64,000 bases of DNA from positions 201,501-265,500 of the forward strand of contig NZ_AP028679.1 in assembly GCF_037076455.1 (NCBI RefSeq), read 5' to 3'. This DNA is from Desulfoferula mesophila. GTDB lineage: Bacteria > Desulfobacterota > Desulfarculia > Desulfarculales > Desulfarculaceae. The notes under the pieces are model-generated. The model did no database searches. It had not been told where the DNA came from and saw only the letters and a program-made list of their open reading frames with translations. Of the stretch, positions 311 to 18,745 are shown piece by piece; positions within the stretch are counted from its first letter, which is position 1, and the number at the start of each line of letters is the position of its first letter. A program made the translations under genes and the position numbers.

Positions 311-2632
311 ATGCCGGAAATCGAAGTCAGGGTTTTAAGTAATGGACGTGAAATTAAAAAAATACTTAGACCATTGCGAATGCTAAATGGAAAGCCAGCA
401 GTTAAATATAAAAAAAATCTTTGGCCTTTGATCAACGAAAACGAAATTCATATAGACACTAAAACAGGTAATTCCAAGCCCATTAAACAAGGTGCTACTG
501 ATAGAATCAAGGCTAAGTTTAAGATAATAGAAGTCAAGGTATTCAATAATGGTCGTGAGATTGACAGGATTCATCGTCCCGTTAAAGAACATGATGGTAA
601 GTTTTCTGTAAAGTACAAAGGAAATTTTTATATATTACAAGAAGGCAACAAGATCTATTTACCAATTTCCGATAACAACCCAAATCATGCAGGCGTCAAT
701 AACCAAAAAGAAGCTTCACTTGATACAAATGTTATCTCTCAAATAGGCATGCCAAGAGAAGCAGGCTTGGACGAATGTCAGAAGGATGTAGTTCAGGCGC
801 CGCCACATGCACGTCTACTAGTAAGCGCTGGGCCTGGAACTGGAAAGACCGAGGTTGCATGTGCACGATTGGCCAATTTGATTGACAATTATCAAATTGC
901 GCCATCGAGCATATGGTTTATTAGTTTTACGCGCACAGCAGTTGGTGAAATTAGGGAAAGAATATCATCACACTTGCACGATCCGGGAGATGTCTTTTTA
1001 GTCAAAATTGCAACACTCGATTCACATGCTTGGATGATCCAATCCGGTTTCGATGAAAATGCGAAAATCTTAGGATCGTATGATGAAAACATAAAAAATG
1101 TTTTGGAGTTGATTAGTAACAACGAAATGGCGATTGAATATCTACAAAGTGTAAGACATCTGATCGTTGACGAGGCCCAAGATTTTGTAGGTATACGCTC
1201 TAATCTTGTCCTTACCTTCATTGAGAAACTTTCTGCCGAATGCGGCGTGACCATCTTCGCTGACGAGGCTCAGGCAATATATGGTTTTTCCGAAATCGAC
1301 GAGGGAGACAGTTGTTTTACTAGACGAAAATCTCTTCCAGCATTATTAAGAGATGATAGGCGGCTGGGTTTTGTGGAAAAGGGGTTGGAAAGAGTACATC
1401 GAACCGAATCCTCAAGACTTCTGACACTTTTCACCAAAACTCGGCTCAAGGTGTTGACTTGTAAGGACACTGAACAAAAGGATCTAGATGAAGTCATAGA
1501 AGAGGTCAAGAAGTTAGCACACGAGACCGTTCCATCAGTTCAAAGACAGGATTTTAATGGTCTTGAGGATCTATTCATTCTATATCGCAGACGCGCCGAT
1601 GTTCTTCTCGCCTCCAGTTTTCTTGGGTGCGAACCCCATAGAATTCGTATGTCGGGTTTGCCATTAAGCGTTGCTCCATGGGTCGGTTGCGTTTTGTCAG
1701 AGTACACAGAGGCAACTCTAGACCAAAATACCTTCGTGGCTCTTTGGTCGTCAAGCAACGTGGAATGCCTGCCTAACTCTCCCGAAATGGAAGACGCGTG
1801 GAAAGATCTTTTGCGTTTGGCTGGGCGAACCAGCAAGGCCATAGACATGGCGCAGCTTCGAACGAAGCTTGGCAGAAAACAGCCTCCACCTGAAATGTGC
1901 AGTACTGAAATCGGACAAACGGGACCAATTATCGGAACCATTCACGCTGTCAAGGGTAGAGAGGCAAAAGTCGTACACCTTATGCTCCCAAGCTATACAA
2001 CTGATGCACGGGGCAGAGATGAGGAAGCCCGAGTCGTATACGTTGGCGCCACGAGGGGCCGGTTGAAGTTGAAGGTAGGACAAGGATATAAACAATGGGC
2101 TCGGCACCTTGAACCTTCGGGACGCGTCTTTAGTCCAAAATTCAGCGGTGCAAAGCCAAAAGCACAAGTGGAAATCGGACATGAGTTCGACATCGAACCT
2201 GCAGGTCTAGCTGGACGCAGTGTCTTTGCAAATGAGACCGAAGTTAGAGAAAGCCAACGCCTAATGAAAAGTTCCATAGGGCATCTCCTGCCGGTAGAGG
2301 CCGAACAAGACCGAACAATACGATATATATATAGGTTAAGGATAGACGGTCAGAGTACTTCCATAGGAACACTGTCAAAAGTCGTCAACGATGATCTTTT
2401 CGAGATAGGAAGGTTAATCCACCAGAAAATCGGTGGGGCCAAACTGCGCCCGCCGGATATTATTCGGCACCTCCGTATGTTTGGGGTTCGCACAATTGTT
2501 TTGCCACCAGAAGCAACTGAGTGTGCCCTACTGCATGAACCATGGGCCAAAAGTGGGATACTGCTTGCACCCATCATATTGGGCTACACGACAATGTATT
2601 TTCAAAGATATCGCAGACGTAGGAGGGGGTAA
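311..2632 (+). CDS. UvrD/Rep-like SF1 helicase with duplicated N-terminal domain
   Basis: Predicted 773-aa superfamily 1 helicase. Visible motifs are a Walker A GPGTGKT near residue 175, a motif II DEAQDF near residue 285, and C-terminal motifs GTIHAVKG and YVGATRG typical of UvrD-type enzymes. Ahead of the motor, two ~48-residue units (about residues 1-48 and 70-117) are clearly related: each has an E-V-x-V-x-x-NGREI core, then RP, KYK and a closing I-Y/H-hydrophobic strand. I do not recognise this small domain. The ATG start is preceded by GGAG. The stop overlaps the next start by one base (TAATG), so it is probably the first gene of the DISARM-like operon. Its exact role is inferred from context only. 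Confidence 0.85.
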   Translation: MPEIEVRVLSNGREIKKILRPLRMLNGKPAVKYKKNLWPLINENEIHIDTKTGNSKPIKQGATDRIKAKFKIIEVKVFNNGREIDRIHRPVKEHDGKFSVKYKGNFYILQEGNKIYLPISDNNPNHAGVNNQKEASLDTNVISQIGMPREAGLDECQKDVVQAPPHARLLVSAGPGTGKTEVACARLANLIDNYQIAPSSIWFISFTRTAVGEIRERISSHLHDPGDVFLVKIATLDSHAWMIQSGFDENAKILGSYDENIKNVLELISNNEMAIEYLQSVRHLIVDEAQDFVGIRSNLVLTFIEKLSAECGVTIFADEAQAIYGFSEIDEGDSCFTRRKSLPALLRDDRRLGFVEKGLERVHRTESSRLLTLFTKTRLKVLTCKDTEQKDLDEVIEEVKKLAHETVPSVQRQDFNGLEDLFILYRRRADVLLASSFLGCEPHRIRMSGLPLSVAPWVGCVLSEYTEATLDQNTFVALWSSSNVECLPNSPEMEDAWKDLLRLAGRTSKAIDMAQLRTKLGRKQPPPEMCSTEIGQTGPIIGTIHAVKGREAKVVHLMLPSYTTDARGRDEEARVVYVGATRGRLKLKVGQGYKQWARHLEPSGRVFSPKFSGAKPKAQVEIGHEFDIEPAGLAGRSVFANETEVRESQRLMKSSIGHLLPVEAEQDRTIRYIYRLRIDGQSTSIGTLSKVVNDDLFEIGRLIHQKIGGAKLRPPDIIRHLRMFGVRTIVLPPEATECALLHEPWAKSGILLAPIILGYTTMYFQRYRRRRRG

Positions 2633-5600
2633 TGCGGGAACAGTTGTTGACGCGACTCATGGAGGACCTCATCGGTCCTCATGAAGAGGAAGAAGTGCTC
2701 ACCTCGAAACCAGCGGATGTCTACTTAAGCGGCATACTATGGCCTCGAGACACACGTATGACGGCTGAAGATGACGAAAAATTTGGCACCGCTGGATTTG
2801 GTGACGAGGAAGGAAGTGAAGCAGGAGAGGAGGAGGAAATCTCCTTGGTGGGGCTTGCTAGGCCCCGATCGGCGGGAGTCTCTCTTGCGGCCTCGAGCCC
2901 CAATGGGGTGCCTTCGATCGAGGTAAGAGTACTTTTTGCAACCTACGAACCTATAGACGATGACCCGGATACAAAAGGGGGCGCACTGGTAGAAAATGAA
3001 AGCAGCGAAACTGAAAGGCTGGATCAACAAAAATCCAAGTGGCCAAGACTTAGATGGCATCGTCGTTGGCATGACTTGTTGGTGCGCGGCCTAAAACTAA
3101 ATAGAGCAGCTATACATGTTGACCTGAAATCTTTTGGTGCTCCTCAAGACGTCAAGCTGTATTTGAGAACAGCGCCTTTTTCGGAGGGAACTCTAACTAC
3201 AGTCACGATCATAAATGACGCGAGTCCTGACAAAGATGGGGGCCGGCGAGACGTCGAAAGGCTTACCCTTTTCCAGACCAAACTGGAGATAAGACCAGAA
3301 AATGGGACTTACTTGGTGGCTCGGCCCTCTAGGCGCATGGTACTGGACGAAGAAGACTTGTCCGGTGAACTGCTTTACCGTGAGGCCAAGGAGTTTGCTG
3401 TTGGCCACACATGCTCGGCCGAATGGGAGGAAGGAGACAATCCCGGAACAGCGTCCAAGGTTACTACCCACTGGATGCCAAGGACTTTAGTAAGCTCAAT
3501 GAATCCAGAAGGATCGGATGTTTTCAATAAATTGCTGGGGGGCGGCTTTGAAAGTCATCTTTCTACAGACTGGTTGGCAGAAGCTTCCGCAGAGGAGCTC
3601 GGAGAAGCACTTTCAGAACTGCCCATAGCATACGGAGAATGGATATCCCAACAGGAGTCGCTGGCCCAAGACTTGGAAGAAAAATACCGCGCACAAGCCA
3701 AGAAGAATTTAAAAAACTGTCGAAAAATTCAAGACAGAATGGCTGAAGGTGCTGTTTTCATTTCCAGTAGCCCCGAACTGACAACTGCCTTTCGCTTGGC
3801 AAACAAAGCCATGTCCCTTCAACACAAATGGAACGTCGACAAGGCTTCCTCAGGCCCTCTCAGGTGGTGGCCCTTCCAGTTAGGTTTCATCCTGCTTGCT
3901 GCATCATCCGTGGCTGATCGCAATCACCCGGAACGGGGAATAATGGATTTGCTCTGGTTCCCAACAGGCGGAGGTAAAACTGAAGCTTATCTGGGATTGA
4001 TCGCCTTTCTTGCGTTCTACAGACGCCTAGCCTCTGGTAAAAATCCTGATGATGGTGCCGGTGTTGCAGCCATAATGCGCTATACATTGCGCCTGCTCAC
4101 GACTCAACAGTTCGTCCGGGCTGCAGCCGTAATGCTTGCATGCGAGGCGATTCGTAGGGGATGCCTTCCTGGTTTTGAGACCGGTATAGACCTCGGAAAA
4201 ACTCCCTTTTCAATTGGCCTATGGGTCGGTAATGATGCTGTACCAAACAAGGTGGCTGATGCTGCTGCCGCATTGGGCGGTGCGGATCAACCGACGCCTA
4301 AGCAGCTCGTTGAATGTCCCGCTTGCAGGAAAGATCTTGTTTGGCAGCACAATTCAAGGGAACAAACCATTCAAGTGAAGTGCCAGAACGAAGGGTGCAT
4401 TCTGTACGATCCGGAAACAGCCCTCCCAATCTGGACAGTGGATGAGGATGTTTATCGTTTTAAACCCACACTTCTTATCGGTACAATAGACAAATTCGCA
4501 CAAATAGTTCGTAGAAAAGAAGTCAACGCTCTTTTAGGTCTCAGCAGCGGACAGCCACCCGATCTGATCGTACAAGATGAACTACATCTGATATCTGGAC
4601 CTCTAGGGACCATTGCGGGTCTTTATGAAGTCGCGATAGACAAGATGTTCTCTTCACGAGGGGGGCAGCCGAAAATTATAGGATCGACCGCTACAATTCG
4701 ACGTGCGGGAGATCAAGTCAAAGCCCTGTTCAATCGTGAGACCGAGCAGTTCCCACCTCCTGGTCTAAATGCAGATGACACGGGCTTCGCTGTCAAAGAT
4801 GAGGCATCGCCGGGGCGCCTCTATTGTGGGATCACAACGGCCGGTCGGTCGGCCAAGTTCACTCTCCAAGCGGTTGCCGCTTCACTTCTTCAATCTGCTT
4901 CTGAGGGCACCGGTGAAGTCAGTGAAAGGGACCCATACTGGACCCTTGTTTCATACTTCAACTCACTGCGCGAACTGGGGGGAGCGCTAGTCCTCATGCA
5001 GGACGATGTCAACGACAGCATGGAAATCTTGGCCGGAATTCGCAGCGAGACTTCTAGAAAACCGGAACTTGTCGAGGAACTGACATCTCGTCGGACGCAG
5101 GCAGAGGTTCGGGACATGCTATCCAGACTTGAGATACCCGCAGGCAGCGGCAGTGCTCTGGACGTGGTTCTTGCGACCAACATGCTGAGCGTCGGTGTCG
5201 ATATTCCACGACTTGGCCTAATGCTCATGAACGGACAGCCCAAGGGAATAGCTGAGTATATACAGGCGACCAGCCGTGTCGGCCGTGGAATCGTTCCTGG
5301 ATTGGTAGTCGTGATTCTGAACAATGCCAAGGCTCGGGATCGATCGCACTACGAAACATTCGCGACATGGCATTCCACACTCTACAGGGATGTAGAACCG
5401 ACCAGCGTTACCCCATTCGCCTCCCGGGCAAGGGACCGCGCCTTGCACGCAATCCTGGTTGCACTTGTAAGACACCTAGTGCCCGGAATGCTTGAACGAC
5501 CTGCACTCGACGATAGAGTAACAGCAGATGCCGAAGACATCATTGATCAAATCACGCAAAGAGCGAAATTCATCGATCCTTCGGAAGTTGAAGTATTGCA

Positions 5601-5841
5601 GGAGTTGAAAGAACGTCTTGCAAACTGGAAGCGTCGCGCCCCAAGTAGCTATTGGGGGTGGAATGTTAAGAAATCGTTGCTCCAAGACGCGGAGAGAGCA
5701 GCGACCATGCGGGCAATGGGCAGAATGCCAGGGGATGCTTGGCCCACATTAAATAACATGAGAAACGTAGAGGCGTCGACTCGCTTCATTCTTCGCGAGT
5801 TCCTGCATCAGAATGCCGACCAAGGGGGGGAAAATGGCTAA
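2632..5841 (+). CDS. drmA: DrmA-like DISARM helicase
   Basis: 1,069-aa protein with the pattern of DISARM DrmA: a long N-terminal region, then FPTGGGKTEAYLG (Walker A, near residue 445), a Cys-x-x-Cys pair plus downstream cysteines near 561-590, the VQDELHLISGPLG motif II near 646, SVGVDIPRLG near 852 and the motif VI ATSRVGRG near 879. In DISARM, DrmA works with DrmB to bind and act on unmodified phage DNA (family knowledge). A strong AGGAGGGG precedes the start, which overlaps the previous stop by one base. Its own end overlaps the next gene by 8 bases, so translation is probably coupled. I am confident of the family; the subtype is less clear because the partner genes are unusual. Confidence 0.88.
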   Translation: MREQLLTRLMEDLIGPHEEEEVLTSKPADVYLSGILWPRDTRMTAEDDEKFGTAGFGDEEGSEAGEEEEISLVGLARPRSAGVSLAASSPNGVPSIEVRVLFATYEPIDDDPDTKGGALVENESSETERLDQQKSKWPRLRWHRRWHDLLVRGLKLNRAAIHVDLKSFGAPQDVKLYLRTAPFSEGTLTTVTIINDASPDKDGGRRDVERLTLFQTKLEIRPENGTYLVARPSRRMVLDEEDLSGELLYREAKEFAVGHTCSAEWEEGDNPGTASKVTTHWMPRTLVSSMNPEGSDVFNKLLGGGFESHLSTDWLAEASAEELGEALSELPIAYGEWISQQESLAQDLEEKYRAQAKKNLKNCRKIQDRMAEGAVFISSSPELTTAFRLANKAMSLQHKWNVDKASSGPLRWWPFQLGFILLAASSVADRNHPERGIMDLLWFPTGGGKTEAYLGLIAFLAFYRRLASGKNPDDGAGVAAIMRYTLRLLTTQQFVRAAAVMLACEAIRRGCLPGFETGIDLGKTPFSIGLWVGNDAVPNKVADAAAALGGADQPTPKQLVECPACRKDLVWQHNSREQTIQVKCQNEGCILYDPETALPIWTVDEDVYRFKPTLLIGTIDKFAQIVRRKEVNALLGLSSGQPPDLIVQDELHLISGPLGTIAGLYEVAIDKMFSSRGGQPKIIGSTATIRRAGDQVKALFNRETEQFPPPGLNADDTGFAVKDEASPGRLYCGITTAGRSAKFTLQAVAASLLQSASEGTGEVSERDPYWTLVSYFNSLRELGGALVLMQDDVNDSMEILAGIRSETSRKPELVEELTSRRTQAEVRDMLSRLEIPAGSGSALDVVLATNMLSVGVDIPRLGLMLMNGQPKGIAEYIQATSRVGRGIVPGLVVVILNNAKARDRSHYETFATWHSTLYRDVEPTSVTPFASRARDRALHAILVALVRHLVPGMLERPALDDRVTADAEDIIDQITQRAKFIDPSEVEVLQELKERLANWKRRAPSSYWGWNVKKSLLQDAERAATMRAMGRMPGDAWPTLNNMRNVEASTRFILREFLHQNADQGGENG

Positions 5842-7672
5842 TAATCGATTGGGAGAGATCAGGAGGAGCGCAGTAATTATGACCTTCGGCCCGGGAGCTG
5901 TCGTAGATTTCCGGGCGCAGGGAGCACCAGTTTCCGCAGTGTTGGCAGGTATAGAGGAATGGGACCGTTGGTTCCCACCAGCAGGCCTGAAACACCCACA
6001 AAGTATAATGGAACCCAGACTTCAACGGAAACTTGCAGTCAAGGGCTTTCGTTTGCCGCCGGTCGTTATCGAAAGTCGGCGCGACAAAAACGACCAGCCA
6101 GACGATCACACCCTCGTAGCAGTGCGGTTTCCTGTTTGGCTCCAATGTCCCAAGTGCAGCAAGATCGCTCCAGCAGACACATGGGGCCAAGAACCGGGAA
6201 GAGCCTATCGTTACTGTGGTCATTGCACCAACAAAGAACCCGGGCAACGCAGGGTCTTTGTAGTACCGGTCCGCTTCATAATGGCCTGTCCGGCAGGACA
6301 CCTCAGCGAGTTTCCCTGGCACAGCTGGGTCGAGCATGAAAAGGACTGCAAATGGAAAGACAATAGTCCGCTTTATTTACGTTCCGAGAGGCCTGGTCTT
6401 GCCGGCCTCATACTCAGCTGCCCTAAGTGCAAGGCTAGCAGATCTATGGACGGGATTTTTAGTTCGGCCACTTGGAGAAATAGTAAATGCCATGGCAGAA
6501 GGCCTTGGCTGACGAATGTTAATGAAGAGTGTTCCGAAAAACCAAGGGCACTACAGCGAGGTGCTTCAAATCTCTATTTTCCGGTCATCGAGTCCGCTCT
6601 CAGCATACCGCCATGGTCTGACGCCCTACAAGAAGCGTTGGGCGTCTACTGGAGCGATATAGTCGATACGAACACCGAAGACCGTGAGCAATTCATTGCT
6701 ATCCTGGCTAGGAATGCTTTGAAATCGGTACTGGAAGAGTTCAACCTAACTCCCAAACAATTAGCACGTCGCATTGGAGAGCGGGTGCTCCTGTTTAGCA
6801 GCGATGACATCCTAAACATACGATGGGAGGAGTACCGCCAATTCTTGGCAGGCTCGGATCCAATGCAGGCCGCCGACCGAGAGTTTGAAATTCGCAACGT
6901 GGAGGTACCTCAGAGCCTCCGTCGCCACTTTGAACATGTGACTCGTGTAGTCAGGTTGCGGGAGGTCCGGGCCATTAGGGGATTTACACGCATCAATCCT
7001 CCTGGAGACGAAGAGAATCCCAATGTGGCCCAGATCAGCATTCGTCGGCTAGACTGGCTTCCAGCAGTTGAGGTCCGTGGCGAAGGAATTTTTTTGACGT
7101 TAAGCAAGGAGCGCCTCCATAACTGGGAGGCTGCGGCCGAGATCAACGTTCGAGCAGATAAAGTACAAAGGGCTTGGGTCTCCGAATGGCGTCAACGCCA
7201 TGGAGAAGGAGAGCCATCGCTCAGAATCACCCCTCGATTTCTACTTATACACACCTTTGCACATGCCCTCATGCGCCAACTGACCCTGGAATGTGGCTAC
7301 TCAAGTGCAGCCTTACGCGAGAGATTGTACGTGAGTGAAGGGAACGACGGTATGGCGGGCATTCTGATATATACTGCCACTTCGGATTCCGATGGAACGC
7401 TGGGTGGACTTCAACGCCAAGGTACACCATCTCGCATAGAGAAGGCGGTCGTGGCAGCCATAAAGGCCATGGAGTGGTGCTCTTCTGACCCGCTTTGTAT
7501 AGAGGAAATGATGACGGTGGCTAGCGGTTTGTCCCTCGCCGCCTGTCATGCGTGTGTCCTCGCCCCAGAAACTGCCTGTGAGGAGTACAACCGTTTTCTT
7601 GACAGGGCGATGCTCGTCGGAATTCCCGGAGACACAACCGTTGGCTTTTTCTCTGACTTAATCGAGGGCTAG
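5834..7672 (+). CDS. drmB: DrmB-like DUF1998 protein of DISARM
   Basis: 612-aa protein. The N-terminus has the FGPGAVVDF motif, several Cys-x-x-Cys pairs follow (CPKC, CGHC, CPKC) that probably bind zinc, and the C-terminal DUF1998 region ends with ACHACVLAPETACEE near residue 569, a hallmark of DrmB. DrmB forms a complex with the DrmA helicase in characterised DISARM systems. I chose the ATG at 5834 because a run of AAGGGGGGG lies just upstream and MANNRLGEIRRS is a natural N-terminus; another in-frame ATG exists at 5813. The 8-base overlap with drmA supports a shared transcript. Confidence 0.88.
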   Translation: MANNRLGEIRRSAVIMTFGPGAVVDFRAQGAPVSAVLAGIEEWDRWFPPAGLKHPQSIMEPRLQRKLAVKGFRLPPVVIESRRDKNDQPDDHTLVAVRFPVWLQCPKCSKIAPADTWGQEPGRAYRYCGHCTNKEPGQRRVFVVPVRFIMACPAGHLSEFPWHSWVEHEKDCKWKDNSPLYLRSERPGLAGLILSCPKCKASRSMDGIFSSATWRNSKCHGRRPWLTNVNEECSEKPRALQRGASNLYFPVIESALSIPPWSDALQEALGVYWSDIVDTNTEDREQFIAILARNALKSVLEEFNLTPKQLARRIGERVLLFSSDDILNIRWEEYRQFLAGSDPMQAADREFEIRNVEVPQSLRRHFEHVTRVVRLREVRAIRGFTRINPPGDEENPNVAQISIRRLDWLPAVEVRGEGIFLTLSKERLHNWEAAAEINVRADKVQRAWVSEWRQRHGEGEPSLRITPRFLLIHTFAHALMRQLTLECGYSSAALRERLYVSEGNDGMAGILIYTATSDSDGTLGGLQRQGTPSRIEKAVVAAIKAMEWCSSDPLCIEEMMTVASGLSLAACHACVLAPETACEEYNRFLDRAMLVGIPGDTTVGFFSDLIEG

Positions 7673-7676
7673 TGAA

Positions 7677-9359
7677 ATGGCGGTCATGTGGCCTAGGGAG
7701 ATCCCTCGAGACGTTCTGGAAAATCCGCTTCGCAGCTCCGAGTGCAAGGTATACCGCCGAATGGAAGCTGTCCTTGAGGATTCATATGTAGTGTTCTACT
7801 CCAGCCCATGGCTTGGAGTGAGACCTGATGGGTCAGAGATAGACGGCGAATGCGATTTCGTAGTCGCACATCCACAGCTGGGAATTCTTGCTTTGGAGGT
7901 GAAGGGGGGGGCAGTAGCGTATGATCCAGAACGAGATCAATGGACGAGCCGAGATCGATGGGGACTCACACATCGGATCAAGAACCCGGTCCATCAGGCG
8001 CGAACCTCAAAGTATGAATTATTGAAAAAACTTAAAGCATCAGCTGAAGTGGCCCATCGTAAAATCGGTGCCTTTCACGGTGTTGTCTTGCCTCATTCAT
8101 CTATGCCGCCACAAGACTTAGGCCCCGATATGCCCCGACAACTCTTCTGCTTCGTGGAACAATTCGAGCATTCATTCAGAGAATGGATACTCGCCCGGTT
8201 TGCAATCGGATCTGAATCGATGCAGACAAGAGACAGGCTGGGCAATGATGGGATCCGGGCCATTGAGAACATCCTTGCCAAGCCGTTTGTTTTACATGCT
8301 CCCCTTGGTCCGCTACTGAGTGAGGATATAGAAGCTCTGAACGTGCTGACCCAGCAGCAGTTTCACATTTTGACCAATATACAGGACGTACAAAGAGCTG
8401 CAATTTCAGGATCTGCCGGAACCGGAAAAACTGTCTTGGCTCTAGAAGAAGCCCGTCGCTGTTCCAAAGACGGCTTACGCACTCTTTATACTTGCTACAA
8501 TCGTCCCTTGGCGATAGACGTCTCAAAACGTCTAGAAGGTTTGCCCAACCTTGTTGTACTTAACTTTCATACGTTTTGCAAAAAAATTGTCGACCAGGCG
8601 GGCATCAAAATTCCAAAGGTTAGTTCGCAGCGTAGACTTTTTGATGATGTTTTTCCTGAGTTGCTTATGCAGGCTTTTGATTCCATGTCAGTTAGGCAAT
8701 TCGATGCAATCATTGTTGATGAGGGCCAAGATTTTTCCCCACTTTGGTGGTCAGCTTTGGACTCTGGCTTAGACCCAAGAGGGAAAAACCTGCTACGCAT
8801 ATTTTTTGACGACAACCAAATGGTTTACGGCAAAGCAAAATGCCTCCCAAAGGACGTCGAAGTCATTCCGATACGTCTCACCAGAAACTTGAGGAACACC
8901 AAGCGCATCCATGAGTTTATCCAAATTCATTATCGGGGATACACGGTAGATGCTATAGGTCCAGAGGGGGTCGAGGTCAAGTGGATTGAGGCACAAACAA
9001 TAGGCACCCTCAGGCGCCGAATAATTGGCTACACCACAAAGCTTGTATCGACTGAAGATATTTCGGCTGAGAGCATAGCCATACTTGTACCGAGTGAGGA
9101 TATGTTGGAGACTATAGCGCCGGAGGGGATGGTCGGGGCTTTGGTTGCTTCCCGATGCGACTCCCCAAAAGATGGTTCCGTGGTCGTCGACACTATAAGG
9201 CGCTTTAAGGGGCTTGAACGTCCTGTGGTCATACTAGCAGCAACTACGGAAATTGGCGAATCTAGAGAGCTTCCATATGTCGCGATTTCCAGGGCATGCA
9301 CCCATTTGATCGTGGTCGGTCCTGCCGATATGCTGAAATGGTTAAGAGGACAGGAGTGA
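7677..9359 (+). CDS. NERD-domain nuclease fused to UvrD-like helicase
   Basis: 560-aa two-part protein. Residues ~42-90 match a NERD (nuclease-related) domain, with a DGECDFVVAHPQLGILALEVKGG-type core giving the D...E-x-K catalytic pattern. The C-terminal part is an SF1 helicase with SAGTGKTVLALEEA (Walker A, near 243), IIVDEGQDF (near 344) and a final AISRACTHLIVVG. It starts 4 bases after drmB and is clearly co-transcribed. In this locus it occupies the place where DrmC, a phospholipase-D-type nuclease, is expected, so it may supply the nuclease activity (inference). A second possible ATG lies 9 bases downstream. Confidence 0.82.
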   Translation: MAVMWPREIPRDVLENPLRSSECKVYRRMEAVLEDSYVVFYSSPWLGVRPDGSEIDGECDFVVAHPQLGILALEVKGGAVAYDPERDQWTSRDRWGLTHRIKNPVHQARTSKYELLKKLKASAEVAHRKIGAFHGVVLPHSSMPPQDLGPDMPRQLFCFVEQFEHSFREWILARFAIGSESMQTRDRLGNDGIRAIENILAKPFVLHAPLGPLLSEDIEALNVLTQQQFHILTNIQDVQRAAISGSAGTGKTVLALEEARRCSKDGLRTLYTCYNRPLAIDVSKRLEGLPNLVVLNFHTFCKKIVDQAGIKIPKVSSQRRLFDDVFPELLMQAFDSMSVRQFDAIIVDEGQDFSPLWWSALDSGLDPRGKNLLRIFFDDNQMVYGKAKCLPKDVEVIPIRLTRNLRNTKRIHEFIQIHYRGYTVDAIGPEGVEVKWIEAQTIGTLRRRIIGYTTKLVSTEDISAESIAILVPSEDMLETIAPEGMVGALVASRCDSPKDGSVVVDTIRRFKGLERPVVILAATTEIGESRELPYVAISRACTHLIVVGPADMLKWLRGQE

Positions 9360-9465
9360 TTCCTCCTCATATGAATGCGTGTTGCTTTTGGCTTGCGTTT
9401 TGCCTGCCTCCATCGCGATTGCCCGCATAAAACATATCATTGCATCAGCAAAACGGAGTCTCGTC

Positions 9466-9873
9466 TTGTCGGACATAATGTCTCCCTCCAAACGCAGCGC
9501 GCTCATGTCTCGTATCCGTGGCAAGGACACGGGACCAGAGATGATTGTGCGCAGGCTGGTCCATTGTTTGGGATACAGATACAGGCTCCACCATAAGAAA
9601 CTGCCAGGTACCCCAGACTTGGTTTTTACAAAGAGAAAGAAGGCTCTCTTCGTGCATGGATGTTTCTGGCATAGGCACGAAGGCTGCAAGAATGCGGTCA
9701 TGCCAAAGACTAGGCCAGAATTCTGGAGAGAGAAATTTCACAGAAACGTGGAGCGCGACAGGGTGGCTGTCAAGGATCTGGATAAGTTGGGGTGGGAGGT
9801 TTTGGTCGTCTGGGAATGTGAAACCAAGGACTTGGATGAGCTCGGTCGGAAACTGTGCAGCTTTCTGGGCTGA
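9466..9873 (+). CDS. vsr: Very short patch repair endonuclease (Vsr)
   Basis: 135-aa Vsr-family endonuclease, which nicks at T:G mismatches left when 5-methylcytosine deaminates. The N-terminus (SPSKRSALMSRIRGKDT) is diagnostic, followed by GTPDLVF with the catalytic Asp and HGCFWHRHEGC with the metal/zinc residues. I place the start at a TTG because GGAG lies 7 bases upstream and the SDIMSP lead-in matches the family; a longer reading frame from a GTG at 9379 has no such support. It converges on a cytosine-C5 methyltransferase, its usual partner, which makes a functional pairing likely. Confidence 0.88.
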   Translation: MSDIMSPSKRSALMSRIRGKDTGPEMIVRRLVHCLGYRYRLHHKKLPGTPDLVFTKRKKALFVHGCFWHRHEGCKNAVMPKTRPEFWREKFHRNVERDRVAVKDLDKLGWEVLVVWECETKDLDELGRKLCSFLG

Positions 9874-9931
9874 TCTTCCGGACGCAACGGCTTCCCGGGC
9901 GTTAGGGAAACCCGTCCCATGAGACGTCAGA

Positions 9932-11371
9932 TCAGACCGCTCGTTGCATCGAGATGCTTTTGGTCCTGGTATCCGCCTTCGAAAGGATTGACATGACGCA
10001 TTCGCCTATTGCCTTGGCCATCAGTGGTGGCACCGCATTGCCTATTTGTCTGAACGCGTCTCCGGTGTTGCCCTCGAGTTGGTATGAGTCTGGGAAAGAC
10101 TGAATCCTTGCCGCTTCTCGTATAGTGATTGTTCGGGCCTGATTCGAATCGAAATGGATGTGCGAATAAGTGTCCTTAGAAAGGTGTGCAGTCAACGTCC
10201 ATGAAGGCTGGTCGGGTATTAGTTTTCTCCACTTTTCCTCAAAAGAATCTGGTGAGTATGGTGGTATGTAGTTAATTCGCACAGGCGAAGGCAATCCTTC
10301 CTTTGGCCAAACGACGCAAGCCTCTTCGTATAGCCTGTTGGCGACTTCTAGCGCCTGCGGATATTTGTCATCCGGCTTCATTTCAGCAAATATTCGAAAG
10401 TCGCGCGGATTCCACCTACAGAAGTGGTCCGTGACTTGGTCGCTTTTATGCCTGTTGTTCCAATCGCGCATCATTTTGCAAAACCAGTTCCTCGGTGCTC
10501 TAACATAGTCGACCGGATGAAAACAGGCCCGAAAAGAACGATATTTAAGGTTATTTTTAAGGGCGTGTAGATGTTCCTTGAACTCAGGGAGATCATCAAA
10601 GGCATCTCTCACCGAGACTGCTGTCCGCACGGGAAAGTCACTTCCGATGGTGCGCGGATCTACGTAAAAATCCAAATTACGCCAAATCTTTAAGTCTGGT
10701 TTAGTTCCAGAGTAAGTCCCAGTATTATGGACGGAATGAAATTGTTTGTTCGGAAAAACAGGCAGTAAATTTAAGTCTTGGCGTACGCCCATTATTATCA
10801 CACGTTCTCGGACCTGGGGAACACCGTACCATGCGCTATTCAAGATTGTGCACTTGGGAATATATCCTGCCTCGCTCACTGCATTGCAAACATCTTCAGC
10901 CACATTGCGTCCTCGGAGATGCAGTATTCCTGTTACGTTCTCGAACAGGAACACGCGTGGCTGTAAGATCTTCAGGAGCCTGATAGCTTGCTTATACAAA
11001 TTGTTCCTGTCATCGTTTATGAAGGCTCCTCGTTTGCTGGCAAGAAAATCAAGCTTTCCGCGCCCTATCTTTGAAAAACCCTGACAGGGTGGAGAGGCAA
11101 TGAGCAAATCTATTTCACCTACCTCTTCATCGTCTATTCGCTTGAGAATTTTGTCGTTCGTAATGCTGCGAATGTCTCCTTCTTCAGGGCCGGTGAAGTC
11201 CAAGGGACGTATACCAAAATTCGTTTCTAATGTTCTGGCCGCAACTGGATCGCATTCCACTGCCCCCAGTAAATCAAAGCCGGCGGCCTCCAACCCGAGA
11301 CTGAATCCGCCCGCTCCAGCGAAAAGATCGTATGCCGAAAGATCCGTGAAAGAAGGTTTTGGAATATTCAC
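9932..11371 (-). CDS. DNA cytosine-C5 methyltransferase (DrmMII-like)
   Basis: 479-aa cytosine-5 DNA methyltransferase. Motif I (DLFAGAGGFSLGLEAAGF) lies at residues ~15-32, the catalytic PPCQGFS near 94-100, ENV near 144, QVRERV near 187, and the C-terminal IQSFPDSY and QIGNAVPP motifs are present. All core motifs look intact, so it should be active. In class 2 DISARM a C5 methyltransferase (DrmMII) marks self DNA; its place beside the DrmA/DrmB operon suggests the same job here. Translation seems to begin at GTG, with GAGGCGAGGG upstream. The recognition sequence cannot be read from the protein. Confidence 0.9.
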   Translation of the reverse strand: MNIPKPSFTDLSAYDLFAGAGGFSLGLEAAGFDLLGAVECDPVAARTLETNFGIRPLDFTGPEEGDIRSITNDKILKRIDDEEVGEIDLLIASPPCQGFSKIGRGKLDFLASKRGAFINDDRNNLYKQAIRLLKILQPRVFLFENVTGILHLRGRNVAEDVCNAVSEAGYIPKCTILNSAWYGVPQVRERVIIMGVRQDLNLLPVFPNKQFHSVHNTGTYSGTKPDLKIWRNLDFYVDPRTIGSDFPVRTAVSVRDAFDDLPEFKEHLHALKNNLKYRSFRACFHPVDYVRAPRNWFCKMMRDWNNRHKSDQVTDHFCRWNPRDFRIFAEMKPDDKYPQALEVANRLYEEACVVWPKEGLPSPVRINYIPPYSPDSFEEKWRKLIPDQPSWTLTAHLSKDTYSHIHFDSNQARTITIREAARIQSFPDSYQLEGNTGDAFRQIGNAVPPLMAKAIGECVMSILSKADTRTKSISMQRAV

Positions 11372-11556
11372 CAGTTAAGTCCCTCGCCTCACTTAAGAAA
11401 ACCAAGGCAACACGACCCACCCAGGCTAGACCGCATCCCACACCGGGATGGATTGGTCAAATTGCTTGCTATAATTGTATGCACTCAACATATCGTATGT
11501 CAATTGCCGATCACACAATATGTTGTACGCGATCATTCTATATTGATGCCGAAAGG

Positions 11557-12963
11557 TTAGCACTCATCCTTGCTGGGCGCTCGAACTCGCTCCTTCGTAA
11601 AGTTGAATATTTCCGAAGGACTCGGATCGATCACGTCCTCGGGATATGTGAACTTGGCCAAGTCCTCTTTGAGATACGATAAGCCGTAGGCTACGGAAAG
11701 TCTGTTCATCCAGTGTTCCGACCCGTCCGGCAAATCCAAGTCCCTTGGAATCGGCATGCCGAGCACATCGGGATTCATGCCGGACCGGAAAAGATTACTA
11801 TGGAAGGTATCCTGCACGGCGTTACCGTATGGGTTGTCGCAGTGCCCACCGCCTCCAAAGATGATCCTAGTGCCACGAAGCTGATCCTTGATGTACAATT
11901 TTTTCTTCGCAAGAGCGAGCGTCTTCTTGGTTCCCTTAAGAATCTCTTCCTTGATCAAACCCTTGGCTCTGATAAGTCTTGGGTCGTTCTCTTCCTGCTC
12001 CTTTTTCTTTCTCAGTTCCTCCAGTTCACGTTCGTTCCATCCATTGCTATTGTTTGATGCCAGACGTTCTACCATACTGGATCCGTACGGGAGTATGTTC
12101 GCACTAAGGTAGGTAAGCTTGTTACTTGTTTCATCCCGAATAAATATGAAAACGGCTTGGTCGACCGAACCCGCTCCCGTGTCCGAGAAAAGGTAGATGC
12201 CTTCACTTGATGCGCGCGATCTAATGAAGCCTTGGACGTTGGCGCTGACTTCCGGGTAAATGAAACACTGCCCATTTCCACTATCGTCCGTGTCCCCCCC
12301 AAAATTTTCCATCAGCTTGCGGATCTCCCTAATACTCAGTTGGGATTCCGACGACATGATTTCCGAGAGGTGCCAAGCCTTGAAAAGAACGTGCCGGAAC
12401 ATGCCATTGACTTCTGCTTGGCCCTCACTGGATACCGGTACTGCCAGATTGAGGGCGAGGTAGTCTTCTGGATGGGAACTGAATTTCGGGAATCTCGACT
12501 TGATATCCTTGAGCACGTCGCTGATCGCGCTGGCAAGAAAGAAGATTGAGCCACACTCGACCAGCTCTTGAAGTCGGCTCCCGTCTCCAGATCCCAAAGC
12601 CTTGGCATATGGTGTCAGTACGGGGTCTTGGAGTTCCGACTTGGCTATCTTGATTAATGCCAGCTTCAGGTTAGGAAGGCAGTCAGCAAGATAACATACG
12701 TCAGTGTTCCTTTGTCTGATGAAACGGCCATCCACGTATATTACATTGCTGGGAATAAGAAATGGCTGCAGAGAGTCATTGTCTTCATCGATGCAAACCC
12801 ACGCCTTGTCTTTGAAGACATCTCTACATATGCATTTGGAGTAGGACGTCCCGAAGTCGAAACCGATCTGCACGAAATAGGGATCTCTCTGACTTCCCAA
12901 ATTATCCTCCCCCGTTTCCTGGTTTGATCTAGCCAGTCTCCGTAGCCATTTGAATACAGACAT
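11557..12963 (-). CDS. Actin/Hsp70-like ATPase
   Basis: About 468 aa when started at the ATG; a TTG 39 bases upstream is the alternative. The actin-fold signature is visible: phosphate-1 loop IGFDFGTSYSKC near residue 33, phosphate-2 loop LFSDTGAGSVDQ near 258 and an IIFGGGGH adenosine-type motif near 368. A charged, probably helical stretch (ERELEELRKKKEQEEND) lies near 310. It lacks the length and conserved C-terminal domain of a housekeeping DnaK, so it is not a general chaperone. It lies downstream of the SNF2 helicase on the same strand with about 80 bases between, suggesting a paired module. Function unknown; role in defence is inferred from context. Confidence 0.75.
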   Translation of the reverse strand: MSVFKWLRRLARSNQETGEDNLGSQRDPYFVQIGFDFGTSYSKCICRDVFKDKAWVCIDEDNDSLQPFLIPSNVIYVDGRFIRQRNTDVCYLADCLPNLKLALIKIAKSELQDPVLTPYAKALGSGDGSRLQELVECGSIFFLASAISDVLKDIKSRFPKFSSHPEDYLALNLAVPVSSEGQAEVNGMFRHVLFKAWHLSEIMSSESQLSIREIRKLMENFGGDTDDSGNGQCFIYPEVSANVQGFIRSRASSEGIYLFSDTGAGSVDQAVFIFIRDETSNKLTYLSANILPYGSSMVERLASNNSNGWNERELEELRKKKEQEENDPRLIRAKGLIKEEILKGTKKTLALAKKKLYIKDQLRGTRIIFGGGGHCDNPYGNAVQDTFHSNLFRSGMNPDVLGMPIPRDLDLPDGSEHWMNRLSVAYGLSYLKEDLAKFTYPEDVIDPSPSEIFNFTKERVRAPSKDEC

Positions 12964-13045
12964 GCGATTCACTATTTCGTTCAGATGCGGTGCTCGTTTC
13001 AAGTCGGATGTGTAAAGATCAGTCTATGCCTCAAACTACCCAAGG

Positions 13046-16000
13046 CTAACTGACAGCCAAGAAGACCCCAGCTGCCACATCCGCCTGTTCGCACTCGATC
13101 GTTGCCCGCTGGTTCAGTTTAGATATGCGGTTCTCTTTGTTCTCAATCGATCGGTCCAGTTTCCTCTGGTTCAGATCGATTATGTGCGGTTTTCTTACTT
13201 CTCTCGTGACCGTCTCTAGGGCCTTTCTATTTGCAGCGATCACCCGGTCGAAAAACGCCGAAACGCGTCGAACCCTGATTCGGTGCATGTTTTCGTTGTT
13301 AGCGTCGAATTCTGTGATCGCTCTGCTGAACGACTCCATCATAGTGGACTGTAGGTTCTCTTGTGAGCTGAGCAAGGTGTCCAAGTCGAAGTCGAGGTGG
13401 TCCCAGTCCCTTCCAGTTTCCAATAGCTGTCTGACTATACTTTCCGCTTTGGCTTTCAGATAGGTACTTCCGGTCTCAATGTTTTGTACGGCGTAGGCCA
13501 GGATTTCCTTGCTCGCGATACCCTGCATCCTCCATCTCTCGATCCTATATGTATAGATGCCCGGATTGAGTTCGGGGTGCTCCAAGAGCAACGCAGAGAC
13601 GTTGTGGAACCTGTGCTCTCTCTGGCTGTTTATGGCAGTCACCCATTTGATTAGGGGGGAAAGGTGGTTCGCGAAGTGCACCTTCTGCTGCAGGGTTGCC
13701 GGCAATCTGGCTTTGATCTCGTTGTCGAAAGTCAGGTTTATTTCCTTTTGTCTTAGGGGTCGCGCTAGCAAGCTCCTGTCTTCTTGCAGATACGAGGAGA
13801 GGGACATCTGTGCCACCGGATTGAGCTTAAGCCTCAAGCAGCCCGTACTGGGAGTATTCTGGTTCAGCTCACATCCATGGAACTCCCGTTCAAAGAAGTC
13901 AATCAGGTAGTCCTCCAGTTCCTTCGGCTGAACGTAGCGACCTTTTTCTCGGTCCTCCTCGATCTGTTTCTGGACATAGTCAGACAGGGCGATGAGAGTG
14001 TCCCCCGATTCCTCAAGTGCCTGCAATTGTCTAAGCCTGGTCTCGATCACCTGTTCCGACTGCTCCATCATCTTCAGTTCCTGTATGGGACTTAGGCGCT
14101 GGCTCAGTACCTGCATCTGTAGCTTTCTCACCTCGTTCCCGATTACTGCCTCGAGATCGCCTAGACTGTTCCTGAACCGATCAAGCTTTTCGTGGAGTCT
14201 TTCATACAGTCTCTCTTCGACAGTGTCCTCGACCTTGAAATTGACGATGGTTAATTTCTTCGATTTTTGTCCGATCCGGTCGATGCGCCCTATGCGTTGT
14301 TCCACGCGCATAGGGTTCCAGGGCAGATCATAATTAACCAGAGTCTTGCAGAACTGCAGATCGATGCCCTCGCTGCCTACCTCCGATGAAAGGAGAACGC
14401 GAGGCCCTGTCGGCTTGCGAAACCTAGCAATCTCCTCCAGCCGTTCGTCGATAGACATGCTACCGTGGATGATCGCGACCGAGACATCATCGTTGCCTAG
14501 GCGCCGCTTTAGATAGAACAGGGTCGGAATGTAATAGGAGAAAATGATGATTTTTTCCTTCGGAGGGGTCTTACGAAGCATGTCGAGCATGATGAAGTAC
14601 TTGCTGTCATTCTTCTCGAAATCGAAGTCCAGAACCTCCTCGAGTTCTTTCGGATCCAGGATGTCGCCGAATGTGAGCTGGTCTGAGGTTGCGAACAGTT
14701 CGTCCTCGAGAATCTCTTCCGTCAATTCCTCAATCTCCCCGAATCGTCCGTCGACGATATCCTGGGCAACCACGGGGAGGCAGCTTGCCGCGCGCAGCTG
14801 TAGGCCCAACATATGGAATATGTGAAATGGGCGGTCTTCCTGCAAGCACTTTCTCCTGACCACCTCGAGGATAGTGTCGTACAGGATCATCTCCTCCGGC
14901 TTGTACTTGACTGTCAGGACCACGGCATGCCGTACTGGTCGGTTCTCCTTCACCTGCACTCGTCTTGTCCGGTTAATGTATCCACCCAGCAGATTCAGCC
15001 TTTCGCCAAGGTCGTGGCATAGAGCGATGCCCTGTTTGTCGTTTGGATCCAGGCTTTCGATCTCCTTAACGAGTCTGGTATATAGAGGCGATTCTTCGAT
15101 AAAGTTGCTGTGCGCCATGTCTGCGGCAGCTTTTCTAACCTTTTCCATGTCTGGGGGCTGACGGGAAAGTTCATTGCAGAGTTGTACTGTTGGCCGGTTG
15201 GCAATGATGAGCTCTTCGAAAAGATTTTTGGTTTCAAGGAAGTCTTCGTCCACCAGCTTGATCAGATTGCGCAGATCCTCGTTGCTGTTGTTTACCGGGG
15301 TTGCCGTGATGCAAAGGACCGCATTTGCCGCATCGCAGAGGCTCAAACCCAGATTGAATGTTGAGGTGGATGCGTTGCGCATGTAGTGGGCCTCGTCGAA
15401 AAGGACCATGTCGAAAACATCATAACCCTGGTCCCAGTGCCTCAGGTCCCTCTGGAAGTTCGTTTTAGGCGAGCAGATCGATCCTTCTTCGGGCGGATTC
15501 TTGAGAAGCTTTAATTCGTTTCTGGGAGCAATGAGTCCGGAATAGGAGCATATCAGCGCGAACGAGTGAGCAGGACCCTCCTTCTTAAGTAGCTTCACCT
15601 CTCGTTTCAATTCCGAAAAGTCTGAAATCCGGGCATCGATCATGAACTTGGTTCGTAGCTCGTCCTGCCATTTGCGCTGGAGCATCTTTGGACAGACGAC
15701 CAGTAGACGTTTTGCCTGATTTCTTGCTTGCACCTCGATCCAGATAAGGGCTGCCTCGATAGTCTTGCCCAAACCAACCTCATCAGCTAGGATCAAACGC
15801 TCCGTCGGTGAGTTGATGAACTTAAGGACTGGCTTGAATTGATACGGATAAAACTTTATCTGGGCGGCTTCCATGGAATAGATGACTTCGTGCAGAGTGC
15901 CTTTGAGCTTTTCGTAGGTAAGCAGCCTCTTGAAATCATCCATGCGGCCGAAGTGCCTCCTGCGAAACTTCTCCTCGATGGTTCCGCTATCTTGCCTCGG

Positions 16001-16195
16001 TGATTCCAGGGATTTCAGTGGAACGGATTTGATGTTACCACCAGGAAATGCGAGTTGGACCATCACGATGGGGCCTGCTTTGAAGGCTTTACCAGTGAAA
16101 GTTCCCAGACTTCCCGGATTGTTGCGATCGATTACTTGGTCGCCCTTCTTGAATGGAACTTTGAGTTTGTCATCATTGTCTTGCATCTGTGTCAT
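13046..16195 (-). CDS. SNF2-family helicase (DrmD-like)
   Basis: 1,049-aa SNF2/RapA-type ATPase. Motifs: ADEVGLGKTIEAALIW (Walker A, ~138-150), LFDEAHYMRN (motif II, ~267), and the C-terminal lobe with SSEVGSEGIDLQFCKT and QRIGRIDRIGQ (~636-646). A long C-terminal extension of about 400 residues is charged and partly coiled-coil-like. DrmD of class 1 DISARM is an SNF2-type helicase, and this is the best candidate match, though class 1 normally carries an adenine methyltransferase instead of the C5 enzyme found here. Two near starts exist (ATG at the given end and another 9 bases in). Confidence 0.85.
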   Translation of the reverse strand: MTQMQDNDDKLKVPFKKGDQVIDRNNPGSLGTFTGKAFKAGPIVMVQLAFPGGNIKSVPLKSLESPRQDSGTIEEKFRRRHFGRMDDFKRLLTYEKLKGTLHEVIYSMEAAQIKFYPYQFKPVLKFINSPTERLILADEVGLGKTIEAALIWIEVQARNQAKRLLVVCPKMLQRKWQDELRTKFMIDARISDFSELKREVKLLKKEGPAHSFALICSYSGLIAPRNELKLLKNPPEEGSICSPKTNFQRDLRHWDQGYDVFDMVLFDEAHYMRNASTSTFNLGLSLCDAANAVLCITATPVNNSNEDLRNLIKLVDEDFLETKNLFEELIIANRPTVQLCNELSRQPPDMEKVRKAAADMAHSNFIEESPLYTRLVKEIESLDPNDKQGIALCHDLGERLNLLGGYINRTRRVQVKENRPVRHAVVLTVKYKPEEMILYDTILEVVRRKCLQEDRPFHIFHMLGLQLRAASCLPVVAQDIVDGRFGEIEELTEEILEDELFATSDQLTFGDILDPKELEEVLDFDFEKNDSKYFIMLDMLRKTPPKEKIIIFSYYIPTLFYLKRRLGNDDVSVAIIHGSMSIDERLEEIARFRKPTGPRVLLSSEVGSEGIDLQFCKTLVNYDLPWNPMRVEQRIGRIDRIGQKSKKLTIVNFKVEDTVEERLYERLHEKLDRFRNSLGDLEAVIGNEVRKLQMQVLSQRLSPIQELKMMEQSEQVIETRLRQLQALEESGDTLIALSDYVQKQIEEDREKGRYVQPKELEDYLIDFFEREFHGCELNQNTPSTGCLRLKLNPVAQMSLSSYLQEDRSLLARPLRQKEINLTFDNEIKARLPATLQQKVHFANHLSPLIKWVTAINSQREHRFHNVSALLLEHPELNPGIYTYRIERWRMQGIASKEILAYAVQNIETGSTYLKAKAESIVRQLLETGRDWDHLDFDLDTLLSSQENLQSTMMESFSRAITEFDANNENMHRIRVRRVSAFFDRVIAANRKALETVTREVRKPHIIDLNQRKLDRSIENKENRISKLNQRATIECEQADVAAGVFLAVS

Positions 16196-16507: not shown

Positions 16508-17512
16508 CTAGATGACCTCGCGTTCCTTTGACTGATCATCTAGGTAATGGTGTGCGATTTTACGAGCCTCTTCAAGGATCTCCTTGCGCAAAGAATCTGG
16601 CTTAATAACCTTGGCCTCCCCGCCTAAGCCAAGCACCCACATCTTGATTTCTTGCAACCCAGCAACATCGAAGCAAACTTCGAGGCTGCCGTCCTTGAGC
16701 CTTTTCACCCGTTGGCTGCTGTGCCAAATTTTTTCCCCGACCCATCTAGACCACTCCGGAGAGATAAGAATCTTTACCTCGTAGAGTTCACCCTGCATCA
16801 CCTTGAATCGGTGGCGCATGTATTTCTCGAAGTCGAAGTTTTTGGGAATTTCAAAGTGGTCTTCAGTGAGTCGCACTAGTTTCATGCGATCAACCACAAA
16901 CATCCTTACTTCGCCCCGCAGATGACAGTGGCCGATCAGATAGATGCTCCCGTCGTGGAACCATATCTTGTAGGGATCGACCTTACGTATGGTTTCCTTG
17001 TCGGTGCGCAAGGGCGTGTAGGCGATCTCAATGCTCTTGCAGTCTAATGCGGCTTGGTTGGCCTGGTTGATGATCTCTCGGTAAGGGCCGTATTCCTTGT
17101 AAGGTTTTATATCCACACTGAAGGTCGATTTTATGCGATCCAAATAGGCCAAGGTGGTCGGTGGGAGGGTTACCTGCACCTTCTTGAAAAGCGACTCCAG
17201 TGAATCAAAAAACGCTGTACCTTGAAAGGCCTTGATCAGGTCGCGATAGACCCAGAGTGACATCAGTTCCGTGAGGGTGAAGGGGGGAGGCACCTTGAAG
17301 CTGTAGGTGTCCACCAGAAACCATTTCTTGGCCCGGTCGACTTTCTCGGCGTAAATGGGAAATCCGGCTTCATGAAGGGCCTCGAGGTCGCGGTAGACCG
17401 TCCTGACGCTGGTTTCTTCGAGAAGCGCGAGTTCGGCGACGGTCAGGCCGTACCTGGCCCCCTCAATGGCCCTGATGATGCGCCACTGCCTGGCAAGCTG
17501 ATCTCCGCGCAA
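16508..17512 (-). CDS. WYL-domain transcriptional regulator
   Basis: 334-aa regulator. The N-terminal ~60 residues form a DeoR-type winged helix (LTVAELALLEETSVRTVYRDLEAL region), and a WYL sensor domain follows around 145-235 (VDPYKIWFHDGSIYLIGHC, then MFVVDRMK). Translation begins at a TTG with an excellent GAGAGGGGG upstream. WYL regulators are commonly found at the edge of BREX, DISARM and CRISPR loci, where they repress the system until nucleic-acid signals appear (family knowledge). Here it sits upstream of the minus-strand block and is the likely controller of the island. Confidence 0.85.
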   Translation of the reverse strand: MRGDQLARQWRIIRAIEGARYGLTVAELALLEETSVRTVYRDLEALHEAGFPIYAEKVDRAKKWFLVDTYSFKVPPPFTLTELMSLWVYRDLIKAFQGTAFFDSLESLFKKVQVTLPPTTLAYLDRIKSTFSVDIKPYKEYGPYREIINQANQAALDCKSIEIAYTPLRTDKETIRKVDPYKIWFHDGSIYLIGHCHLRGEVRMFVVDRMKLVRLTEDHFEIPKNFDFEKYMRHRFKVMQGELYEVKILISPEWSRWVGEKIWHSSQRVKRLKDGSLEVCFDVAGLQEIKMWVLGLGGEAKVIKPDSLRKEILEEARKIAHHYLDDQSKEREVI

Positions 17513-18586: not shown

Positions 18587-18745
18587 ATGACACCTCCCCA
18601 TGTTTGAGAAGAGTCTACCGGGCCTTTTTGTCAAATCCGGTCACAGCACTGGAAAGAAAAAATGGCCGAGGCAATTTTTTTGGTTTGCTGTGACCGCATC
18701 TGACAATAACCGCCTTTATGGTAGTGCGTAGGGAGGAGAGGCGGG

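Follow-up and report, generated by a model that had tools for sequence, protein, structure and literature searches.

A UvrD-DrmA-DrmB-NERD operon, a probable DISARM variant, beside a SNF2 and Hsp70-type gene pair in Desulfoferula mesophila

Do the nine genes of a defence island in Desulfoferula mesophila make up one composite system, or do they belong to more than one? The island occupies positions 311-17512 of a stretch of 64,000 nucleotides (G000:C1:201501-265500, from a genome of 4.48 Mb in a single contig), the whole of which we call the window. A sequence-only reading had described it as a composite island of the DISARM type (defence island system associated with restriction-modification) with mixed class features, and possibly as a new subtype. 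All the genes named there are present with intact frames, as judged by open reading frames (ORFs) and by matches in PADLOC, Pfam and NCBIfam, and none of the nine ORFs has an internal stop according to the ORF listing and a motif check. The genes form two convergent blocks that meet tail to tail at 9873/9932, with no unrelated gene between them. The forward-strand block runs UvrD-DrmA-DrmB-NERD-Vsr, its genes overlapping or lying 4-19 nt apart; the reverse-strand block holds a WYL-domain regulator, a SNF2 helicase, an Hsp70-like ATPase and a C5-cytosine DNA methyltransferase. Comparison of these sequences with related loci leads us to consider it probable that the forward-strand operon is a variant of DISARM and that the SNF2 and Hsp70-type genes of the reverse strand are a separate, portable module.

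Recurrence of the UvrD-DrmA-DrmB-NERD operon

The operon opens with a UvrD/GajB-like helicase of superfamily 1 (SF1; 311-2632, 773 aa; Pfam UvrD-helicase 85 bits), in which Walker A and DEAQD are intact and the N-terminal part is variable; this part (window 311-760) differs in length among relatives and contains two stretches of about 65 residues that resemble each other. DrmA and DrmB are as clear as had been claimed. DrmA (2632-5841) is a YprA-type helicase of superfamily 2 with 1069 aa, matched by PADLOC DrmA with 696 bits (1.1e-209) and by NCBIfam DrmAS with 897 bits, below the cutoff of 950 of that model. DrmB (5813-7672), a DUF1998/MZB protein of 619 aa that overlaps DrmA at 5813-5841, is matched by NCBIfam DrmB_fam with 528 bits (cutoff 240) and by Pfam MZB. 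They are followed by a fusion of a NERD nuclease with an SF1 helicase (7677-9359, 560 aa; Pfam NERD and UvrD_C_2; motifs GExDF...EVKGG, GSAGTGKT and DEGQD) and by the mismatch endonuclease Vsr (9379-9873; TIGR00632 141 bits, cutoff 98).

This arrangement recurs elsewhere and is thus more than a chance grouping. A search of 72,556 plasmid records gave 60 matches for DrmB, 59 for NERD and 15 for UvrD, and in 9 of the 60 DrmB records a NERD gene lies within 3.5 kb (co-occurrence was determined with an overlap script on 16 of the 59 NERD records, the remaining 43 accessions being compared by eye, with none shared). Seven of these nine records, representing four distinct loci (Rhizobium rhizogenes, Shinella sp. 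PSBB067, Azospirillum ramasamyi and R. ruizarguesonis/leguminosarum), have NERD directly after DrmB and UvrD before DrmA, and they are exactly the seven records with the best NERD matches; the other two (Rhodococcus opacus B4 and Deinococcus gobiensis) have NERD before DrmA. Likewise, all eight of the 15 UvrD records that reach at least 57% coverage adjoin DrmA/DrmB, the eighth being a Tsukamurella record with DrmD- and DrmMI-like genes further along (named from annotation and gene order). We also found a degraded copy of the operon in Burkholderia aenigmatica and a remnant cut by an insertion sequence in Shinella zoogloeoides.

With the UvrD profile, 27 loci were retrieved from viral and mobile contigs, and all six long matches (five distinct, L188 being the same as L190) have DrmA and DrmB directly downstream. 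Two of them, L191 and L193, carry the full UvrD-DrmA-DrmB-NERD set plus a C5 methyltransferase and Vsr, and a further locus, L216, holds the end of DrmA followed by DrmB, NERD, methyltransferase and Vsr. Complete loci therefore number seven (the window, R. rhizogenes, Shinella, Azospirillum, R. ruizarguesonis, L191 and L193); in all 11 of 11 distinct loci UvrD immediately precedes DrmA, and in eight NERD immediately follows DrmB, with a gap of 0-13 nt or an overlap in the loci read. Within the phylum, DrmB matches were found in 21 of 395 genomes, five of them weak (E 3.9e-6 or weaker), and NERD in any form in 37. Four of the 14 phylum DrmB loci that were read (L131, L140, L142 and L143) have NERD upstream of DrmA; the remaining ten either have neighbours of the DrmC, DrmMI or DrmD type or are incomplete.

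The phylogeny of DrmB points in the same direction. In a tree of 38 rows (an enlargement of a first tree of 29, with L132 omitted as identical to L133), the nine UvrD-type rows, L216 and the Shinella remnant form one branch with 100/99 support, the DrmC-type loci fall on another (100/99), and the NERD-DrmA-DrmB loci lie apart; L151 and L193 join near the UvrD-type and DrmC-type branches without a resolved position. This sequence tree sets the UvrD-NERD type apart from DrmC-type DISARM, and supports the classification of the operon as a DISARM variant.

In this operon the position after DrmB is taken by NERD. As had been stated, a phospholipase D (PLD)-type DrmC is absent: none of the ten window proteins scanned has a DrmC or PLD match in PADLOC, Pfam or NCBIfam. 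At locus L189 the slot that NERD occupies in relatives, directly after DrmB, holds a PLD-type protein (Pfam PLDc_2 59 bits; PADLOC DrmC 102 bits), and an alignment of seven full-length NERD proteins (a wider set was also aligned) shows conservation of the signature GExDF...EVKGG, of Walker A and of DEGQD. We therefore read NERD as a replacement of DrmC, and the exchange between L189 and its relatives is a testable one. According to a study of DrmAB, DrmC was dispensable in tests and is often missing, and the agent that degrades DNA is unknown (PMC9142583); with the nuclease step of DISARM thus open, an intact NERD protein regularly found in the DrmC position is a direct candidate. Other proteins were seen at this position as well: in three other DrmAB loci, related to one another (L153:11800-13173, L154:11860-12945 and L145:11911-13032), the gene that directly follows DrmB encodes an SF1 helicase lacking NERD. 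On a Lactiplantibacillus plasmid (L146:2854-11935), DrmA and DrmB are accompanied by a C5 methyltransferase and by a protein of 801 aa that neither Pfam nor PADLOC matches, and no DrmC is listed.

The C5 methyltransferase of the window (9932-11371, reverse strand; Pfam 217 bits) has intact PCQ and ENV motifs, and its best PADLOC match is MTase_II with 278 bits, DrmMII giving 250 bits; in the related locus L193 the neighbouring methyltransferase matches DrmMII with 540 bits. A C5 methyltransferase and Vsr occur near the operon in the same six of the eight DrmB-NERD loci.

The SNF2 and Hsp70-type pair

The Hsp70-like ATPase (11557-13002) and the SNF2 translocase/helicase (13046-16195), both on the reverse strand, keep different company in other genomes. 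An initial scan of genome contigs with one single protein as query gave no match; a profile built from eight Hsp70-like sequences then retrieved 52 loci from genome contigs, and no relative in viral contigs. In 49 of the 52 (all except L055, L062 and L073) a SNF2 gene adjoins the Hsp70-like gene on the same strand. DrmA/DrmB was found in none of the 52 at E 1e-5, within flanks of up to 10 kb that were often shorter.

In the phylum, the Hsp70-like gene is present in eight of the 395 genomes, that of the window included; seven genomes have a SNF2 ortholog of at least 47% identity, in one case fragmented and without the Hsp70-like gene. Seven plasmid records have a SNF2 match of at least 80% coverage. 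The check for the Hsp70-like gene covered five of these (a second Sphingobium record and Methanomethylovorans lay outside it), and found the gene in three by BLAST and, by profile, in the Aminobacter record (150 bits) and in one of the two from Sphingobium (96 bits). At G214 the Hsp70-like gene stands without a SNF2 match, and upstream of it are relatives of two window genes at 26442-28777, a protein with a Mu-type transposase domain and its 258 aa partner, IS21-like by look.

The neighbours of the pair, read for part of the 52 loci, are varied. Type I restriction-modification (RM) genes are near it in G386, G140, L037, L046 and L048, and in L037 and L048 type I RM-like genes flank it on both sides; in G208 it lies beside a BsuBI/PstI-type RM system and in G392 beside a PglZ operon. 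A reverse transcriptase gene is found near the pair in L033, a DUF499/HEPN protein in L049, Mokosh genes a few kb away on a plasmid of Cyanobacterium HL-69, and a CRISPR I-D locus on a Leptolyngbya plasmid, while some loci have no recognised defence neighbour. In L039 a homolog of the ARPP-1 domain protein that adjoins the WYL gene in the window (17597-18634; Pfam 306 bits) is located directly upstream of the pair.

The SNF2 gene had been taken for a DrmD, a class 1 trait, and indeed PADLOC calls the protein DrmD with 634 bits. We rejected this assignment, since NCBIfam DrmD gives 361 bits against a cutoff of 610, and the gene falls within an Hsp70-linked branch of the SNF2 tree; it is DrmD-like at the family level only. 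In that tree (quick method) 45 Hsp70-linked rows including the window group together with a Shimodaira-Hasegawa-like approximate likelihood-ratio (SH-aLRT) support of 98, and three DISARM DrmD rows lie outside. Near-copies (L031, L052 and L057) and SNF2 pieces shorter than 700 aa or below 400 bits are omitted, and the rows were gathered via the Hsp70-like gene, so that the tree gives no measure of clade members that are without it. The claim of mixed class features rested on this DrmD assignment and falls with it. As a mark of novelty it would not serve in any case, because a C5 methyltransferase and a true DrmD co-occur in other DISARM loci (G015, G129 and Tsukamurella).

The ATPase belongs to a sequence family that Pfam, NCBIfam and PADLOC do not recognise at E 0.001, and a search of solved structures by sequence gave no useful match for it. 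Its phosphate motifs DFGT and DTGAGSVD are present, and its AlphaFold2 model reached a mean pLDDT (predicted local distance difference test) of 86.6 and a pTM (predicted template modelling score) of 0.86. For this model Foldseek lists chains of DnaK and other Hsp70 proteins first (best E 4.5e-9, template modelling score by query 0.43), and VIA-align superposes model residues 42-457 on DnaK with Z 27.4 and a root-mean-square deviation of 3.2 over 316 aligned residues at 13% identity. Only about 24 low-confidence residues follow residue 457, leaving no room for a substrate-binding domain. On this model the protein is an ATPase of the Hsp70 nucleotide-binding-domain type without a substrate-binding domain. 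We set aside a first reading of it as an actin/ParM-type filament protein, as the listed structural matches are of the Hsp70 type nearly throughout (8r2n, BeeR filament, is among the Foldseek rows). An alignment of 40 of the 52 loci with the window and G214 was made, and a C-terminal tail of the type [ST][KR]D was counted by eye in 30 of the 52 loci; that of the window reads SKDEC.

Proposed roles and competing explanations

If the operon works as a DISARM variant, the methyltransferase would mark host cytosines, and DrmA-DrmB would load on invading DNA that lacks such marks and has a single-stranded end, unwind it and block it. The study of DrmAB describes its activation by DNA that is unmethylated and carries a 5' overhang (PMC9142583). 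The UvrD helicase may help to find or open DNA ends, as GajB does (PMC10952713), the NERD nuclease-helicase, standing where DrmC otherwise would, would degrade the DNA, and Vsr would mainly repair T:G mismatches where a methylated cytosine deaminates. For the SNF2 and Hsp70-type genes, a role can be derived from their constant pairing and their neighbours only: they are likely an ATP-gated DNA translocase whose SNF2 motor, switched or assembled by the Hsp70-type domain, would strip or remodel DNA for whichever restriction system adjoins. More speculatively, the pair might serve as a stand-alone, portable module for licensing, in which an Hsp70-type ATP switch that has no substrate-binding domain, and that possibly docks by its C-terminal [ST]KD tail, controls a SNF2 translocase across many restriction-type systems. 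That the pair plugs into type I and II RM, PglZ-type and DISARM-like systems, raising or gating their activity, is an equally tentative suggestion. Should the pair be shown to act with the adjoining restriction systems, it would amount to a shared accessory module of a new kind; and if the licensing idea is true, a chaperone-type switch would be a shared regulator of DNA restriction.

Several observations weigh against the division into a DISARM variant and a separate module. NERD is missing although UvrD is present in L192, L189 and Tsukamurella, and it also occurs with other DrmAB lineages as NERD-DrmA-DrmB, so that it is not private to the variant. The loci are not all independent, as L188 is close to Shinella and L216 to L191. 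Neither methyltransferase nor Vsr was found in the examined flanks of Azospirillum and R. ruizarguesonis; with two of the eight DrmB-NERD loci thus lacking a C5 methyltransferase there, self-marking cannot be universal. In R. rhizogenes these two genes are in a separate block with M26A and DUF2357 proteins, to which they may belong, and the methyltransferases are distant from one another (36% identity between the window and R. rhizogenes, 29% between the window and Shinella), which suggests exchange rather than strict co-inheritance. Finally, L193 has a different Hsp70-type gene (L193:7945-9420; PF00012 124 bits over the nucleotide-binding part, 11 bits to the profile of the window family) directly upstream of UvrD, and an unrelated pair of SNF2 with a large protein X lies beside four UvrD-DrmAB loci (R. 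ruizarguesonis, Azospirillum, L191 and L192), divergent to them (L127:431-6324, L125:1-5132, L191:58-6041 and L192:3962-9321). A functional tie of DrmAB variants to SNF2 or Hsp70-type ATPases is therefore possible. X measures 988-1259 aa in the two cases read and has no Pfam match; a related pair is found in Leisingera (L149). Next to the Hsp70-type gene of L193 is a coiled-coil-looking gene of 449 aa (L193:6594-7943), the two standing upstream of UvrD-DrmA-DrmB-NERD-methyltransferase-Vsr.

These last loci bear on the reading in which all nine genes are one composite DISARM system, the SNF2 and Hsp70-type genes doing the job of the class 1 DrmD. It can also appeal to the contiguous, convergent layout of the island and to Shinella PSBB067, which has both modules about 45 kb apart. 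Still, we judge it unlikely: all 52 other Hsp70-like loci are without DrmA/DrmB in the examined flanks, the pair is found beside RM and other systems, and the SNF2 of the SNF2 and X pairs belongs to a different branch from that of the window gene. Defence islands gather unrelated systems, and this one has an integrase gene and a DUF927 gene close by on its upstream side, as a chance assembly of unrelated genes would have it; a gene order found in seven loci, with methyltransferase and Vsr in six of eight, makes that explanation very improbable. We give still less credence to the idea that the NERD helicase, Vsr and methyltransferase are a DRT-like or RM system of their own parked beside DrmAB, even though the NERD protein has its best PADLOC match in RTasNERD-Hel (190 bits) and NERD-SF1 proteins occur with other giant helicases, since NERD follows DrmB so tightly in the loci read and all seven best plasmid NERD matches are DrmB neighbours. 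The proposal of a new subtype is thus supported for UvrD-DrmA-DrmB-NERD, which a C5 methyltransferase and Vsr usually accompany. This support does not extend to the island as a whole, from which the SNF2 and Hsp70 genes separate as their own module and whose WYL gene gave no match in those related loci that were searched with it.

Surroundings and relation to known systems

The WYL-domain gene (16508-17512, reverse strand; Pfam WYL, WCX and HTH_11) is likely a regulator of the island; no match to it was found in the related loci of either module searched with it. Promoter and terminator patterns in the window did not exceed those of shuffled sequences (11 vs 17.2 and 18 vs 18.4, respectively); a single promoter-like site, agreeing at 11 of 12 positions, precedes the methyltransferase at 11503-11474 on the reverse strand. 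S-adenosylmethionine synthetase genes are present on both sides of the island (L005:4684-5973 and window 21096-22244), the left one followed by a gene for S-adenosylhomocysteine hydrolase. The tyrosine integrase and the DUF927 gene just upstream (L005:7460-8569 and 9568-11922) suggest an integrated element, and a related DUF927 gene is found near the DISARM locus of G015 (L028:1-2072). Also in this region is an S-adenosylmethionine-dependent methyltransferase (L005:14158-15876) with a C-terminal HNH-like motif by eye, adjoined by a SNase-domain gene.

DrmE is part of the class 2 content of DISARM. It is not among the PADLOC and NCBIfam families listed for the window (for the UvrD protein, the best 25 of 40 PADLOC families). 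The core of DISARM is present, namely DrmA, a separate adjoining DrmB and a DNA methyltransferase, the last being of the C5 type (DrmMII) characteristic of class 2. With classes 1 and 2 the window shares the tandem of separate drmA and drmB genes, the DNA methyltransferase and, relative to the commonest layout, a nuclease directly after drmB. It differs from them in having no PLD-type DrmC, no DrmMI adenine methyltransferase (no match in the families listed for the ten window proteins) and a SNF2 gene outside the DrmD branch, and it adds the UvrD-like helicase before drmA, the NERD nuclease-helicase after drmB, and Vsr. We therefore file UvrD-DrmA-DrmB-NERD as a new DISARM variant. The literature searched contained no description of this operon or of the SNF2 and Hsp70 pair; the founding DISARM paper and supplementary files were outside that scope, so that either may already have been published.

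Other known systems share single elements with the island. The UvrD protein weakly matches GajB models of Gabija (62 bits, over part of the helicase), with no GajA among the matches listed. ARMADA type II likewise has a YprA-type helicase with a SNF2 protein (BrxHII/RapA-like), a GajB-like UvrD helicase and a Vsr nuclease; there, YprA is a single polypeptide to which a Vsr domain is fused, the methyltransferase is PglX-like and the UvrD helicase bears a RelE domain (PMC12458937), whereas the window has separate genes for DrmA, DrmB and Vsr and a methyltransferase of the C5 type, with no PglX match among the families listed. TALON also combines a YprA-type helicase with a NERD nuclease, and differs by its TPR-CSD and TBP genes and its ARMADA-like YprA (PMC12458937); the window has DrmA/DrmB and a NERD-SF1 fusion, and none of its ten proteins has a TPR-CSD or TBP domain in Pfam. 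The SNF2 protein of the window resembles the DrmD/BrxHII/RapA type in superfamily and size, and falls in the separate, Hsp70-linked branch. Hsp70-type ATPase domains, some of them without a substrate-binding domain, are described from other conflict systems, namely GTPase-centred systems (PMC7159879) and CnuD of CoCoNuT (PMC11090510); in contrast to these, the ATPase of the window is paired with a SNF2 translocase.

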